Shown piece after piece: positions 5,403 to 12,202 of a DNA stretch of 12,342 bases. The stretch covers positions 1 through 12,342 of the forward strand of contig DYJV01000065.1 of assembly GCA_020722945.1 (NCBI GenBank). Direction: 5' to 3'. Every line of letters starts with the position of its first letter. Within the stretch, counting starts at the first letter, position 1. Under the pieces are notes generated by a model. It did not search any database, was not told the DNA's origin, and saw only the letters and a list, made by a program, of their open reading frames with translations. Origin of the DNA: Candidatus Methylomirabilis sp. Its GTDB lineage: Bacteria > DYJV01. A program made the position numbers and the translations under genes.

Positions 5403-6521
5403 ATGAGAAAGATACTATATTCCTCAATAATCATTATATTTTTTTTAGCTTGTAATTTATTATATGCTGAGATCATTATTCCAGTGGTTTCCCCTTTTAC
5501 AGGTCAACTTGCAACTTTTGGTGAAGGTGTAAAAAATGGTGCTATATTGGCTGAGGAAGATATAAATAAAAGTATTGGAGCAAATGGAGAGAAGGTTAAA
5601 ATTATCCTTGAAGATGATATGTGTGAACCTAAAGAAGCTGCTAATGTTGCAACCAAGATAGTCAATATGAAAGATATCCAAATAGTAGTTGGACATCTCT
5701 GCTCCTCTGCAACACTTGCTGCTCTCCCTATCTACAAAAATGTAAAGTTGCCAGCAATATCACCTGCATCCACAAATATCAATATTGGTAAATTAAGTGA
5801 ATACTACTTTAGAAATGTTTATAAAGATGATTTTCAAGGTAGTTTTCTTGCAAGATATATTGATGAAGCATTGAAAATGAAAAATATACTTATCTTTTAT
5901 GAAAATAACGATTATTCAATAGGATTAAAAAATGCTTTCGAGAGTGAAGCTAAAAATAGGGGATTAAAAATAATTGGCAAAGAATCTTATACAACTGATG
6001 ACCAAGATTTCAAACCACTACTTTCCAAATATAGAGCAAAAAAACCGGAGGTTATATTTATACCAGCCTATGCACCTCATGCTTCATTGATAATTTCACA
6101 GTCAAAAGAGCTTGGTATTAAAGCAGTTTTTCTCGGTGCAGATGGCCTTGATGACAAGATACTCCTTCAAAACCCTGATGCAGATGGTTTGATGATAACT
6201 ACCCCATTTATCCCTGACAAAGCGGGTGAATTAGCTTCAAAATTCATATCTGATTATAGAGCAAAATTTAAAATTGAACCAAACTGGTTTGCTGCAAATA
6301 CTTACGATGCAGTTATGATAGCTTTTCAAGCAATCAAAACAGTAGGTAAAGATAGAGAGAAGATAAGGGCTTACCTTGCAGGGATAGATTCTCCAGAGAA
6401 AGCGTTCAAAGGTGTTACAGGCATTACATATTTTGATAAAAATGGGGATTGCCTCAAATCTGCTTTCATCAAAAAAATAAAATCTGGGAAATGGGTAGGT
6501 GCTGATATACAGTTAAAGTAA
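5403..6521 (+). CDS. livK: Branched-chain amino acid ABC transporter, periplasmic binding protein
   Basis: A 372-residue, LivJ/LivK-type (type I periplasmic binding fold) receptor. The signal peptide spans about residues 1-22 with a likely signal peptidase I site after LYA22. A Cys17 in FLAC could alternatively be a poor lipobox, leaving the mature protein lipid-anchored. The fold is recognisable from PVVSPFTGQLATFGEGVKNG (27-46), VVGHLCSSATLA, PAISPASTN and the C-terminal NTYDAVMIAFQAI. The SSATLA and SPAST segments normally contact the ligand carboxyl and amino groups. The ligand is inferred from family only; many such receptors bind other amino acids or aromatic acids. AGAGGTG at 5392-5398 precedes the ATG, 17 bases after rpoZ. 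Confidence 0.9.
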   Translation: MRKILYSSIIIIFFLACNLLYAEIIIPVVSPFTGQLATFGEGVKNGAILAEEDINKSIGANGEKVKIILEDDMCEPKEAANVATKIVNMKDIQIVVGHLCSSATLAALPIYKNVKLPAISPASTNINIGKLSEYYFRNVYKDDFQGSFLARYIDEALKMKNILIFYENNDYSIGLKNAFESEAKNRGLKIIGKESYTTDDQDFKPLLSKYRAKKPEVIFIPAYAPHASLIISQSKELGIKAVFLGADGLDDKILLQNPDADGLMITTPFIPDKAGELASKFISDYRAKFKIEPNWFAANTYDAVMIAFQAIKTVGKDREKIRAYLAGIDSPEKAFKGVTGITYFDKNGDCLKSAFIKKIKSGKWVGADIQLK

Positions 6522-6539: not shown

Positions 6540-7454
6540 ATGCTTTTACAGCAGATAGTCAATGGGCTCATTCTTGGTTCGATATACTCACTTGTGGCAG
6601 TAGGTTATACACTTGTATATGGAGTTATAGAAATTATTAACTTTGCACATGGCGAGATATATATGCTTGGTGCATTCTTTTTTTACTCCTTTTTAAATAT
6701 GGGGTTTCCGATTATCTTTGCACTTATTTTATCGATATTCTCATGTATAGCTGTTGGAGTTTTGCTCGATATTGTTGCATACAGACCACTCAGAAATGCT
6801 GATAGATTATCTGCTCTGATTACCGCAATAGGGATGTCTATATTTTTTCAGAATATTGCAATGCTTATCTGGGGAGCAGATGTTAAAAGATTTTCAAGTG
6901 AGCTCTTACCAGCTTTTTTTAAGAAAAATTTTATAAATTTGCCTAACGAATCGTTACCTTTTTTTAATGATGCTTTTTTATCTGTATCTTATCTTCAGGT
7001 AATAATACTGTTTATATCTCTGCTCTTTATGCTGGGACTTCACATTATTGTAAACAAAACCAAAATAGGCACAGCAATGAGAGCAATAGCACAAGATAAG
7101 CAAGCTGCTGCACTTATGGGGATAAATGTTAATAGTGTAATATCCTGGGCATTTGGACTTGGTTCTGCTCTTGCAGCAGTAGCAGGAGCATTGATAGGGA
7201 TATATTACAACGCCATATATCCAACAATGGGTTATATAGCAGGAGTAAAGGCATTTTCTGCTGCTGTGCTTGGTGGTATAGGTTCTATATCAGGTGCTAT
7301 GTTTGGTGGTATTCTTCTTGGAATTGCAGAGACATTTGGTGCAGCATATATATCAAGTGAATATAGACATGGCATTGCGTATGGAGCAATGATCTTTGTT
7401 ATCTTATTTAATCCCTCTGGGCTCTTAGGCAAAAAGAGAGTAGAGCGAGTATAA
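6540..7454 (+). CDS. livH: Branched-chain amino acid ABC transporter permease LivH
   Basis: A 304-residue inner-membrane permease with about eight hydrophobic segments. LivH hallmarks are the opening LLQQIVNGLILGSIYSLVAV, the INFAHGEIYMLGAF motif (33-46), and the cytoplasmic coupling loop MRAIAQDKQAAALMGIN (180-196), which docks on the ATPase subunits. The C-terminal GGIGSISGAMFGGILLGIAE is also family-typical. Together with LivM it would form the translocation pore for the livK ligand. A weak AAAGGT lies at 6530-6535, 18 bases after livK. Confidence 0.94.
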   Translation: MLLQQIVNGLILGSIYSLVAVGYTLVYGVIEIINFAHGEIYMLGAFFFYSFLNMGFPIIFALILSIFSCIAVGVLLDIVAYRPLRNADRLSALITAIGMSIFFQNIAMLIWGADVKRFSSELLPAFFKKNFINLPNESLPFFNDAFLSVSYLQVIILFISLLFMLGLHIIVNKTKIGTAMRAIAQDKQAAALMGINVNSVISWAFGLGSALAAVAGALIGIYYNAIYPTMGYIAGVKAFSAAVLGGIGSISGAMFGGILLGIAETFGAAYISSEYRHGIAYGAMIFVILFNPSGLLGKKRVERV

Positions 7455-7723: not shown

Positions 7724-8653
7724 ATGAACAGTAAACTAATTTTATCTATTATATTTTTGGGTATTCTCCTACCGCTTTTACCTTTAGAGAATTCCGAATA
7801 TATTACAAGAGTTGCAACCCTCACAATACTCTACATTATATTGGCAATGGGGCTAAATATAATTGTAGGTTTTACAGGCTTGCTTGACCTTGGATATGTT
7901 GGTTTTTATGGGATAGGTGCGTATATTTCTGCGATAGTATCGGTCAAATTAGGACTTCCAATATTTTTACTGTTATCATTATGTTTAATAGGTGGAGCTT
8001 TATCTGGAGTGATACTTGGTTTGCCCACATTAAAATTAAAGGGTGACTACTTTGCAATTGTAACTTTCGGTTTTGCAGAGTTGGTAGTCTTAATTATGAG
8101 AAATGAAATATGGCTTACAAAGGGACCAATGGGGATAACTTCTATTCCACCTGTCTCAATATTCAACTATACATTCCAAAAAATTTATCACTACTACTAT
8201 CTGATATTTATTATCTTTCTGATTATTTTCCTCGTAATCAGAAGAGTTGAGAACTCCAAAATAGGCAGGGCATGGTTTGCAATCAGAGAGGATGAAATAG
8301 CTGCAAGGTGTTGTGGTATAAATGTCTTACTCTACAAGGTCATAGCATTCGCTTTTTCTGCTGGAATTGCAGGTATTGGAGGAGCTTTTTTTGCAAGGTG
8401 GTTTTCATTTGTCCATCCTGATATGTTTAAATTTTGGGAGTCTATACTGATTCTTTCCATAGTTGTATTCGGCGGGATGGGTAATATTTACGGCGTTATA
8501 TTAGGGACAATCTTACTTGTTCCACTGACTGAAGTTTTAAGAGTTATCCTTCCGCAGGATTTTGTCCATGCAAGATACCTGATCTTTGGATTACTCCTTG
8601 TTATTATGATGAGATTCAGACCCAACGGATTAATCCCATTTAATAGAAGGTAG
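7724..8653 (+). CDS. livM: Branched-chain amino acid ABC transporter permease LivM
   Basis: A 309-residue permease partner of LivH with about eight or nine hydrophobic segments. LivM features are LNIIVGFTGLLDLGYVGFYG (44-63) with GAYISA following, the GDYFAIVTFGFAEL segment (107-120), the cytoplasmic loop WFAIREDEIAARCCGIN (184-200), and the C-terminal MMRFRPNGLIP. It lacks the long N-terminal extension (DUF3382 type) found in some enterobacterial LivM. The ribosome-binding site is weak (AAAG at 7718-7721), so expression may depend on read-through translation from the acidic gene 28 bases upstream. Its 3' end contains the Shine-Dalgarno of livG. Confidence 0.94.
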   Translation: MNSKLILSIIFLGILLPLLPLENSEYITRVATLTILYIILAMGLNIIVGFTGLLDLGYVGFYGIGAYISAIVSVKLGLPIFLLLSLCLIGGALSGVILGLPTLKLKGDYFAIVTFGFAELVVLIMRNEIWLTKGPMGITSIPPVSIFNYTFQKIYHYYYLIFIIFLIIFLVIRRVENSKIGRAWFAIREDEIAARCCGINVLLYKVIAFAFSAGIAGIGGAFFARWFSFVHPDMFKFWESILILSIVVFGGMGNIYGVILGTILLVPLTEVLRVILPQDFVHARYLIFGLLLVIMMRFRPNGLIPFNRR

Positions 8654-8657
8654 AGAT

Positions 8658-9782
8658 ATGCTTGATGTTCTCAATTTATCAAAAAGTTTTGGTGGTATAG
8701 ATGCTCTTTCAGATATATCTTTCAGTATAAAAAATGGTGAGATAGTAAGCATAATAGGTCCCAATGGAGCAGGGAAGACAACTTTATTTAATATAATCAC
8801 AGGTCTTATACAACCATCAAAGGGTGCAATTTTTTTTAATGGTTGTGAAATAATCCCAGACAACTCTATAAAAGAACTAAATAGAGTTAAAATAGCTTCT
8901 TATCTGATTTTGCTATACTCTATTTTTATAACTTTATTTTTCTACTTTTCTTATATAAATTACACTGATTATCATTTAGAATTTACACTTTTCTTAGCTA
9001 TATCAATGATTTTTAGAATTTTTGCAGTATATAGATTTTACCAAAAAGTGCTATGGGCAAAAGCTTTCCTCTCTCTGATTCTCTTTTTTGATGCAGCTTT
9101 TCTTATTTACATTGCTGTTAAAAAAAATTTTATAATGCCTGTGATTCTAATTACTATTTTCCAAATGCTATTTTACATTTATCTTCATAGAAAACCTGTA
9201 AAAAATATCTTTGGAGAATTTCTTGAAGCAGAAAAAATTTCAATTATGGGGATTGCAAGGACATTTCAGAATATAAGGTTGTTTGGAAATTTGAAAGTTA
9301 TCGAAAATATTATGATAGGGTTTCATAATTCATTTAAAGGAAGTATTTTAGATATTTTATTTAACACCGATTTTCACAATAAAGAGGAGAAAGCTTTCAG
9401 AGATAAAGCATTTAATCTTTTGGAATATACTGGGATAAAGGATCAGGCTCACAATCTTGCATCTAACCTCTCTTACGGTGAGCAGAGGAAACTTGAAATA
9501 GCAAGAGCTCTATCTTTGAACCCCAAATTAATACTACTTGATGAACCAGCAGCAGGTATGAATAACATGGAAACTCTTCAATTAATTGACCTAATAAAAA
9601 AAATACGTGAAAGTGGGACAACAGTCCTGCTCATTGAACACGATATGAATTTTGTAATGAATATATCTGATAGAGTTATAGTTCTCAATTATGGTAAAAA
9701 AATAGCAGAGGGGACACCAATTGATATCAGGCAAAATCAGGAAGTAATAAAAGCTTATCTTGGAGATAAAAAGGGGGATTGA
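8658..9782 (+). CDS. livG: Branched-chain amino acid ABC transporter ATPase LivG with a four-helix membrane insertion
   Basis: The 374-residue product is a LivG-type ATPase about 120 residues longer than the family norm (about 255). All motor motifs are intact: Walker A GPNGAGKTT (34-42), Q-loop Gln204 in RTFQNIRLF, signature LSYGEQRKLEIARAL (271-285), Walker B LILLDEPAAG (291-300, Glu296), and H-loop His328. The LivG C-terminal EVIKAYLG is present. The extra length lies between Walker A and the Q-loop: Lys40 to Gln204 is 164 residues against 43 in E. coli LivG. That segment reads as four membrane helices. The reading frame is unbroken through it. AGAAGG at 8645-8650 fixes the start, four bases after livM. 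No livF follows, so the partner ATPase is elsewhere or LivG acts as a homodimer. Confidence 0.92.
   Translation: MLDVLNLSKSFGGIDALSDISFSIKNGEIVSIIGPNGAGKTTLFNIITGLIQPSKGAIFFNGCEIIPDNSIKELNRVKIASYLILLYSIFITLFFYFSYINYTDYHLEFTLFLAISMIFRIFAVYRFYQKVLWAKAFLSLILFFDAAFLIYIAVKKNFIMPVILITIFQMLFYIYLHRKPVKNIFGEFLEAEKISIMGIARTFQNIRLFGNLKVIENIMIGFHNSFKGSILDILFNTDFHNKEEKAFRDKAFNLLEYTGIKDQAHNLASNLSYGEQRKLEIARALSLNPKLILLDEPAAGMNNMETLQLIDLIKKIRESGTTVLLIEHDMNFVMNISDRVIVLNYGKKIAEGTPIDIRQNQEVIKAYLGDKKGD
8868..9227 (+). other. Coding segment for the transmembrane insertion within LivG
   Basis: This covers about residues 71-190 of LivG. Four hydrophobic segments are seen at about 79-100, 107-125, 132-153 and 157-176. 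Charges follow the positive-inside rule fairly well: K72, R76 and K78 before helix 1; no Lys or Arg between helices 1 and 2; R120, R126, K130 and K135 around the loop between helices 2 and 3; R178, K179 and K182 after helix 4. The exception is K155 and K156 in the short loop between helices 3 and 4. An even number of helices returns the chain to the cytoplasm, so both halves of the ATPase domain can fold together. I do not recognise the insert as a known domain. Confidence 0.8.
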
Positions 9783-9783
9783 T

Positions 9784-10890
9784 ATGAGTAGGGCAAAAGT
9801 TTTTTTTACAAAAATAACCGGATCTTACAAAGAGAATGTTTTTAAGAGGATTATAAAATTATGCAATGAGGCAGGTTTGAAAGATAGAGTAAAGGAGAGA
9901 GATTTTGTTGCTATCAAACTTCATTTTGGAGAGATGGGGAATGCTGCATTTATCAGGCCTATATTTGTAAGAGAGGTCGTAAATGAGATAAAAACTCTCA
10001 AAGCATTGCCATTTATCACAGATGCCAACACTCTTTATGTTGGCAGCAGGAGTAACTCTGTAGATCACCTTGAAACAGCCATCAAAAATGGGTTCTCTTA
10101 TGCAACTGTTGGAGCTCCTCTGATAATTGCCGATGGATTAAAAGGTAAAGATGAGACAGAAATTGATGTAAACCTTAACCATTTTTCAAAAATTTATGTT
10201 GGCTCTCAGATTATGGACGCAGATGCAATAGTCAGCATGGCACATTTCAAACTACATGAGTTGAGCGGTTTTGGTGGAGCTATAAAAAATATAGGGATGG
10301 GAGCTGCTTCAAGGAGGGGGAAACTTGCACAGCACTCCAACATTGCCCCAAAAATAAATAAGAAACGTTGTATCAGTTGTGGTAACTGTGTAAAAAATTG
10401 TCCAGCAACTGCAATATCTTTTGATACAGATAAAAAGGCTATCATCGATAAAGAGAGATGTATAGGTTGTGGTGAGTGTATTTTACTCTGTCCTGTTCAG
10501 GCAGTTCAGATACAGTGGAATGAGGCTACCCCTATTTTTATGAAAAAGATGGTTGAGTATGCCTATGGAATAGTCAACGAGAAGAGAGATAAATCTATAT
10601 TTATTAATTTTCTTACAAATATAAGCCCTGCCTGTGATTGTTATCCATTTAATGAAATGCCTATAACACCTGATATTGGAGTTGTAGTATCCACAGATAT
10701 TGTAGCAATTGACAAAGCAAGTGTTGATCTTCTCAATCTTGCCTCACCCAATAAAGGCAGCAAAGTTGATTCGTGTGGAGTCTCAGACAAGGTAAAGTGT
10801 GTTTATCCAGAGATTGACTGGGAGATACAGCTAAAATATGCAGAAGAGATTGGACTCGGTTCACAAGATTATGAGTTAATTGAGATTTAA
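9784..10890 (+). CDS. DUF362 domain protein with two 4Fe-4S ferredoxin motifs
   Basis: A 368-residue predicted iron-sulfur protein. The N-terminal and C-terminal parts form a split DUF362 domain (AIKLHFGEMGN near 43, FKLHELSGFGGAIKNIGMG near 155-173, and the late PDIGVVVSTDIVAIDKAS). Between them lies a bacterial-type two-cluster ferredoxin insert with Cys196, 199, 202, 206 and Cys226, 229, 232, 236, each CxxCxxCxxxCP. No signal peptide is seen, so it is cytoplasmic. Biochemistry of the family is largely unknown; an electron-transfer role is inferred from the clusters. The ATG at 9784 is preferred over an in-frame TTG at 9760 because AAGGGGGA lies at 9771-9778 and the upstream codons overlap livG. 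It begins one base after the livG stop. Confidence 0.9.
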   Translation: MSRAKVFFTKITGSYKENVFKRIIKLCNEAGLKDRVKERDFVAIKLHFGEMGNAAFIRPIFVREVVNEIKTLKALPFITDANTLYVGSRSNSVDHLETAIKNGFSYATVGAPLIIADGLKGKDETEIDVNLNHFSKIYVGSQIMDADAIVSMAHFKLHELSGFGGAIKNIGMGAASRRGKLAQHSNIAPKINKKRCISCGNCVKNCPATAISFDTDKKAIIDKERCIGCGECILLCPVQAVQIQWNEATPIFMKKMVEYAYGIVNEKRDKSIFINFLTNISPACDCYPFNEMPITPDIGVVVSTDIVAIDKASVDLLNLASPNKGSKVDSCGVSDKVKCVYPEIDWEIQLKYAEEIGLGSQDYELIEI

Positions 10891-10920: not shown

Positions 10921-11505
10921 ATGAATATCGATATAGTTCCATTTCAGGCAAAGCTTGAGCGTATTGCATTTTCAAATAATATTGATGTGGTTGCTTTTGC
11001 TGATTTAGAGGGTTTGGAATCTGACTATAAAAAAGGTTTTGAAAATTACTCAAAAGCTATTATTCTTGGTCAATCTTTCAGTAACAATTTATTTAGCAGA
11101 TATAAAGAGGATATATTTGATTTTCATATATCCAAGATATCCTCACACCTTTCAGAGTCAGCGTATAAAATATTCCATCTTATATCGATAGAGGGTTACG
11201 ATTCACTTATACTTCCACCACTTTTTTTAGATAGCAAAGATAAGTATGTATCTTTAAACAAGAGAATTGGAGAGCTTGCAGGTATCGGGAAAGTTGGGAA
11301 AAAAGGGTTTTTTGTTTCACCATCTTTTGGTGTGAAGATTGTGCTTACTTCAGTATTGACTGATGCACCATTTGAGACAGACAAGAGATTCTTTACAGAG
11401 CTTTGCAATGTATGCAATATTTGTGATACCTATGATTTTGAATATTCAGTTAGAAACTGCCCATACGGCAGGGATAAAATAAAAATCAGACATGATAAGT
11501 TGTAA
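10921..11505 (+). CDS. Short epoxyqueuosine reductase-like (QueG-related) iron-sulfur protein
   Basis: A 194-residue protein. The segment GELAGIGKVGKKGFFVSPSFG (117-137) followed by VLTSVLTDAPF matches the A-G-x-G-x-x-G-K-x-x-x-x-x-P...L-T-D-x-P core of QueG and its shorter, uncharacterised relatives. Cys162, 165, 168 and 180 (CNVCNIC then NCPYG) look like one 4Fe-4S site with an enlarged gap before the last Cys. It lacks the second ferredoxin cluster and the C-terminal HEAT part of true QueG (about 370 residues). The VD-x-x-P stretch carrying the QueG catalytic Asp is not seen, so a tRNA-modifying role is unlikely. AAAGGAG at 10909-10915 is a good start signal. It may exchange electrons with the DUF362 ferredoxin next door, which is only a guess from position. 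Confidence 0.72.
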   Translation: MNIDIVPFQAKLERIAFSNNIDVVAFADLEGLESDYKKGFENYSKAIILGQSFSNNLFSRYKEDIFDFHISKISSHLSESAYKIFHLISIEGYDSLILPPLFLDSKDKYVSLNKRIGELAGIGKVGKKGFFVSPSFGVKIVLTSVLTDAPFETDKRFFTELCNVCNICDTYDFEYSVRNCPYGRDKIKIRHDKL

Positions 11506-12202
11506 AAATATCTCCAAAACATATATCAAAAAAGGTTTTATCTCTACCGAAAAGTTTGAAGCATTACAAAATGTTTCGATCGATATTAGGGATAAAGAGG
11601 TTTTCTCTATAATAGGGTTAAATGGTGCAGGGAAAAGCACTCTTATTTCAGTAGTTATCGGCATTATTAAGCCTACTTCAGGGAGTGTTGAGTTTGGCAT
11701 ACAAAATTATAGAGAAGAAATAGGATATATGCCTGAAATTGTTAATTTTCCACTCAATCTAACCCCCAAAAGCATTTTAAATTCAATGAAATTTATCTAT
11801 CCACAGATGAATGATAAAAATATAAATTACTGGCTTGATAAGGTTAATCTTCAAAATGTAACTAAAAAACCTCTCAAGACATTTTCAAAAGGTATGCTGC
11901 AAAGGTTTAATCTTGTTCAATGCCTCGCACACGATCCTCAAATAGTTGTCCTTGATGAGCCATTTAGCGGGCTTGACCCTATTGGAAGGAAAGTATTTTT
12001 TGACACTTTTATCGACCTCAAAAATTCAGGGAAAACAATACTCTTTTCATCACACATATTAAATGATGTTGAAAAGATCTCTGATAAAATAGCTATTATA
12101 CACAAGGGTAAGCTAATTAAAGTTTTAAATAAAGGTGAGACAGGTGAAAGTGGGTTGACAGAGTTATTTATAAAAAGTATAGGCTACGGAAGCTCTGTTT
12201 GA
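11492..12202 (+). CDS. ABC-2-type exporter ATP-binding protein
   Basis: A 236-residue ATPase with Walker A GLNGAGKST (42-50), EIGYMPE (76-82) in the Q-loop region, signature FSKGMLQRFNLVQCL (131-145), Walker B IVVLDEP (151-157, Glu156) followed by FSGLDPIGR, and switch His188 in FSSHIL. The IGYMPE and K-G-M-x-Q-R features point to the CcmA/DrrA/NosF-like exporter class, which works with a separate ABC-2 permease, and not to LivF (whose signature is LSGGEQQ). Its start lies 14 bases inside the preceding gene with no strong Shine-Dalgarno, suggesting translational coupling. It lacks the C-terminal extension of about 60 residues found in many relatives. No permease gene is visible in the remaining 140 bases, so its substrate is unknown. 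Confidence 0.9.
   Translation: MISCKNISKTYIKKGFISTEKFEALQNVSIDIRDKEVFSIIGLNGAGKSTLISVVIGIIKPTSGSVEFGIQNYREEIGYMPEIVNFPLNLTPKSILNSMKFIYPQMNDKNINYWLDKVNLQNVTKKPLKTFSKGMLQRFNLVQCLAHDPQIVVLDEPFSGLDPIGRKVFFDTFIDLKNSGKTILFSSHILNDVEKISDKIAIIHKGKLIKVLNKGETGESGLTELFIKSIGYGSSV

Follow-up and report, generated by a model that had tools for sequence, protein, structure and literature searches.

The ATPases of ABC importers are textbook soluble subunits. The locus described here raises the question of whether such an ATPase, a LivG of a branched-chain amino acid importer, can carry a membrane domain inside its ATPase domain and still work, and what the membrane domain would be for. The window, by which we mean the whole stretch of 12,342 nucleotides that was analysed, contains a livG-like gene in which four predicted membrane helices lie between Walker A and the Q-loop. 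They had been noticed in an earlier reading of the sequence only.

A LivG with an interrupted ATPase domain in a Liv locus

The gene encodes 374 residues in one unbroken frame and retains all five ABC motifs (Walker A, Q-loop, signature, Walker B and H-loop; Table 1), so that the sequence-only reading was right in calling the frame continuous and the catalytic motifs intact. Pfam ABC_tran matched the product in two pieces (3.3e-30), and BCA_ABC_TP_C, which is the C-terminal domain of branched-chain amino acid ATPases, matched residues 347-370 with 39.4 bits against a cut-off of 25.5. The top-scoring NCBIfam model was LivG (NF008449). Its match was split by the insert and reached 267.3 bits, below the curated cut-off of 362, and insert-bearing LivG scored 264-276 bits on this model. 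In the tree the protein fell with LivG and not with LivF (100* split), and its gene shares the locus with those of LivK, LivH and LivM. We class it as a variant LivG, from a subfamily that the papers searched do not describe; the transporter itself is of no new kind. With four predicted membrane helices, it does not look like a soluble peripheral LivG.

Wherever the contig permits, the operons with the insert have the order LivK-LivH-LivM-LivG-LivF, the exception being the displaced LivF of the window. A DUF362-like ferredoxin protein (9760-10890) stands after LivG here. A LivF (64% identical) was found on another contig of the same genome (C56:2584-3282), where it adjoins a gene for an RsuA/RluB-type pseudouridine synthase that follows LivF in a relative. 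The open reading frame that closes the end of the window (11492-12202) was considered as the missing LivF and rejected, since it encodes a separate ABC ATPase resembling those of ABC-2 type export.

Table 1. Features of the Liv locus (positions in the window; residues are those of each product)
Feature	Position	Strand	Basis
livK-type periplasmic binding protein	5403..6521	+	PF13458
livH permease	6540..7454	+	PF02653
livM permease, short N-terminus, no membrane extension before core	7724..8653	+	PF02653 from residue 27; 41 residues before core motif
livG-like gene, 374 aa, ABC ATPase with predicted internal four-helix membrane domain	8658..9782	+	unbroken ORF, Pfam, NCBIfam
Walker A GPNGAGKTT, residues 34-42	8757..8783	+	sequence
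Inserted, predicted membrane domain, residues ~66-196, ~121 residues beyond ordinary LivG loop	8853..9245	+	spacing comparison; conserved in 24 LivG
Predicted TM helix 1, residues 71-99, including amphipathic lead-in	8868..8954	+	AlphaFold2 and hydropathy
Predicted TM helix 2, residues 106-128, with invariant E108 (8979-8981) and R120 (9015-9017)	8973..9041	+	AlphaFold2, alignment of 24
Predicted TM helix 3, residues 132-156, with invariant W133 (9054-9056) and D145 (9090-9092)	9051..9125	+	AlphaFold2, alignment of 24
Predicted TM helix 4, residues 159-178	9132..9191	+	AlphaFold2 and hydropathy
Positively charged exit segment, conserved FG (185-186), runs into Q-loop strand	9192..9245	+	alignment of 24
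Q-loop RTFQ, residues 201-204	9258..9269	+	sequence
ABC signature LSYGEQR, residues 271-277	9468..9488	+	sequence
Walker B LILLDEP, residues 291-297	9528..9548	+	sequence
H-loop histidine H328, within IEHDM	9639..9641	+	sequence

Extent, topology and predicted structure of the insert

Walker A and RTFQ are 155 residues apart in the window LivG, compared with 33-40 in nearly all ordinary LivG sampled; the exception was that of G014, with 67. Hydrophobic segments were found by hydropathy at residues 79-97, 107-125, 136-154 and 158-176. Spacing, hydropathy and AlphaFold2 thus agree with the earlier description of about 120 residues with four helices between Walker A and the Q-loop. The location given then, 8868-9227, also stands, while the extent is slightly wider in our analysis, about 8853-9245. 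An in-out-in-out-in topology had been proposed from the loop charges, and the charge bias is consistent with it: every one of the 24 insert-bearing sequences carries more lysine and arginine inside, the totals being 195 in the cytoplasmic segments (flanks and loop 2) against 23 in the periplasmic loops 1 and 3. In G014 the LivG (L027, minus strand) is longer at this very site by about 33 K/E-rich, strongly charged residues, which shows that insertions are tolerated there. Sister LivG without the insert (L089-L093, L015) have an insertion-site loop that is 5-6 residues longer.

The full window LivG was modelled by AlphaFold2 on an alignment of three sequences. The best model had a mean pLDDT of 78 and a pTM of 0.65, with the exit segment 181-195 poorly defined; the remaining four were poorer (52-66). 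The predicted ABC core aligned with LptB (Z 29.1, 232 residues, 1.9 Å) and with the LivG MJ1267 (1gaj; Z 27.9), in both cases across the insert, and the prediction therefore shows no block to assembly of the ABC domain by the four predicted helices. Predicted alone, the insert formed four membrane-length helices and an exit helix. Searches with the insert alone returned chance-level matches only in Pfam and NCBIfam (DUF2070 0.14, DUF6768 0.071) and no meaningful fold in the PDB, where the best Foldseek E was 3.6 and the best Z of a VIA search was 12, within the chance range for helical bundles. The sequence-only reading knew of no LivG with such an architecture; our literature search, limited to papers readable outside subscription, likewise found none that describes a membrane domain inside a LivG or another importer ATPase.

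Conservation of the insert

The sample covered two genomes of the window's phylum, 12 of a second phylum and 395 of a third, the large phylum of G024. A profile made from the two LivG of the window's phylum, which share 54% identity overall and 41% within the insert, detected insert-bearing LivG in the second phylum, and a six-sequence profile was then used on wider genome sets. It matched in 19 of the 395 genomes of the third phylum, one match being a TRAP transporter, which left 18 LivG. Altogether 24 LivG of the three phyla (2/2, 4/12 and 18/395 genomes) carry the insert at the identical position, and as it is conserved in 23 LivG besides that of the window, it is not a product of chance. 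The same profile did not find it in the other-phylum part of a 385-genome sample, in 111 genomes of the phylum of G020 or in two smaller phyla; in all, about 380 genomes from other phyla lacked it, and it was not found in viral contigs either. No convincing stand-alone homologue outside LivG appeared in 1,368 genome scans, in which some genomes were scanned twice. The sole non-LivG match below 1e-4, a TRAP transporter in G603, was excluded, and weaker ones were taken as chance as a class, not one by one.

Five residues, E108, R120, W133, D145 and G186, are invariant in all 24 sequences. Two of them, R120 and D145, are placed within predicted membrane helices, and a third, E108, where a helix starts. 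Between G108 and G386, the insert had a dN/dS of 0.153 and the core one of 0.060. The insert is thus under purifying selection, though less constrained than the ATPase. Two insert-bearing LivG of genus g578, at L138:1-1143 (+) and L145:4352-5557 (-), have a degenerate signature (GADDRRR and SHANRRR, respectively, vs YGEQR) and altered neighbours of the Q-loop, and L138 also has EQEM instead of EHDM at the H-loop. Judging from these motifs, they may be catalytically impaired nucleotide-binding domains.

The LivM partner and the origin of the insert

A single clade, with an SH-aLRT of 100 and a long stem (0.94), unites the LivM of 16 insert operons. In the wider starred clade of 25 LivM rows that contains it, each of the nine rows without the insert has a longer N-terminal part with additional hydrophobic segments. 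The core motif of LivM is preceded by 41-56 residues in the 16 insert rows and by 99-126 in eight no-insert rows; three further operons were left out of this measurement because the motif used was absent from them. All insert-linked LivM thus lack the N-terminal membrane extension of about 60-70 residues that is seen in every nearest LivM without the insert. One bacterial family has both states, four genomes with the insert and five without, and LivM is short in the two insert genomes read and long in all five of the others. In the LivM paired with the sister LivG L089-L093 and L015 the extension is conserved and is covered by no Pfam model. The insert and the extension gave an hhalign probability of 0.1 with shallow profiles, and they differ in the number of helices, four vs about two. 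Many LivM elsewhere also lack the extension although the paired LivG has no insert. Besides, 26 positions of LivM and 18 of LivH are fixed in the insert operons and absent from their no-insert relatives, and the substrate of these systems may differ from branched-chain amino acids.

A tree of the LivG core was built with the insert columns removed. Unconstrained, it placed 19 insert-bearing rows in one clade and the window pair apart; with all insert-bearing LivG held together it was not rejected (AU p 0.64), and its log-likelihood was 6.5 higher. Because of this likelihood and of the single LivM clade, the simplest account of these sequences would be one origin of the insert, followed by vertical or horizontal spread.

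What the membrane domain may do

Conservation, topology and the predicted core support the proposal, already made in the sequence-only reading, that a Liv system has a nucleotide-binding subunit which would be embedded in the membrane and keep an intact ATPase core. That reading also raised altered docking to LivH/LivM, sensing and anchoring as possible roles. Our best explanation, to which we give a probability of roughly 0.55, is that the protein is the working ATPase of a LivKHMGF system and represents a membrane-anchored LivG subfamily, with the four-helix module beside LivM in the role of the N-terminal helices that LivM lost. We infer that the LivG chain would fold the first part of the ABC domain, span the membrane four times and, back in the cytoplasm, form the rest of that domain, starting with the Q-loop. 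In ABC structures in general, it is the stretch ahead of the Q-loop that faces the permease. The module would pack next to LivM and probably help the ATPase to assemble with the permease and stay coupled to it, as the extra N-terminal helices of LivM would in sister systems, and transport would continue. The exchange of insert and extension is one correlated event on the tree and may therefore be a coincidence. Further points against this explanation are the lack of sequence similarity between insert and extension in the hhalign comparison, their unequal helix numbers, the LivM elsewhere that are short beside a LivG with no insert, the separate place of the window pair in the unconstrained LivG trees, and the location of the window's LivF on another contig. 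We hold it possible, but rather less than probable, that the module both took over from the lost LivM helices and relays a signal from the membrane or a ligand through the invariant buried E, R and D to the Q-loop. The ATPase would then supply part of the membrane domain, which would make a new class of ABC importer.

The main rival to our best explanation gives the four helices a role in regulation or sensing: the buried charges would respond to the state of the membrane, to an ion or to a ligand, and the neighbouring Q-loop would receive this signal and gate ATP hydrolysis. The invariant charged residues would suit such a role, as would the insert running straight into the Q-loop strand and evolving faster than the core while being clearly constrained. 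However, charged pairs are often conserved where helices pack for structural reasons only, and the insert showed no likeness to known sensor domains in the Pfam, NCBIfam and PDB fold searches; on balance we consider sensing unlikely. It is less likely still that the helices are a simple anchor, which would concentrate the ATPase locally without touching LivM in any specific way, the difference in LivM being coincidental. In favour of an anchor, the site accepts other additions, such as the charged residues of G014 and the 5-6 extra residues of several LivG, but four residues invariant in three phyla and a single LivM clade exceed what an anchor needs.

The fixed positions in LivM and LivH, together with the long LivM stem, could also mean that a specialised Liv subfamily has changed its substrate or its path of transport along with gaining the insert, for example through helices added around LivM or LivH. 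The positions lie scattered, however, and many of them could be due to lineage divergence alone, so that we think this quite improbable. An assembly error, a frameshift fusion or a dead gene was a natural concern, because the window comes from a draft genome in 184 contigs, of which contamination is put at 5.8%. Absence of the insert from relatives would have pointed to such an artefact; it is instead carried by independent genomes, including two that are apparently single contigs (G244, G522), and the intact motifs and a dN/dS well below 1 do not fit a dead gene. Conservation in three phyla refutes this reading, and we give it practically no weight.

Comparison with known systems

The soluble-subunit rule for importer ATPases appears to be broken here by a conserved subfamily from uncultured bacteria of at least three phyla, with a predicted integral membrane domain next to the Q-loop. 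It may be a natural case of membrane helices moving from the permease to the motor, and comparing both architectures offers an approach to the role of the extra N-terminal helices of some LivM.

The insert-bearing proteins share with ordinary LivG (NF008449; solved relative MJ1267, 1g6h/1gaj) the ABC core and its motifs, BCA_ABC_TP_C, the livK/H/M/F operon and the fold, and differ from them by about 121-146 extra residues with four predicted membrane helices between Walker A and the Q-loop. LptB, the closest structural match to the predicted ABC core, is soluble and has no insert. In exporters and ABCG proteins, transmembrane and ATPase domains also occur in one chain, fused end to end. The nucleotide-binding domain of a fused exporter is uninterrupted, whereas in the window LivG the insert lies inside it. 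The LivM with an N-terminal membrane extension, as in E. coli and in the no-insert sister operons, is alike in bringing accessory membrane helices to the Liv complex; its extension sits in the permease, while the insert sits in the ATPase, and no sequence similarity was found between the two with the shallow profiles compared.
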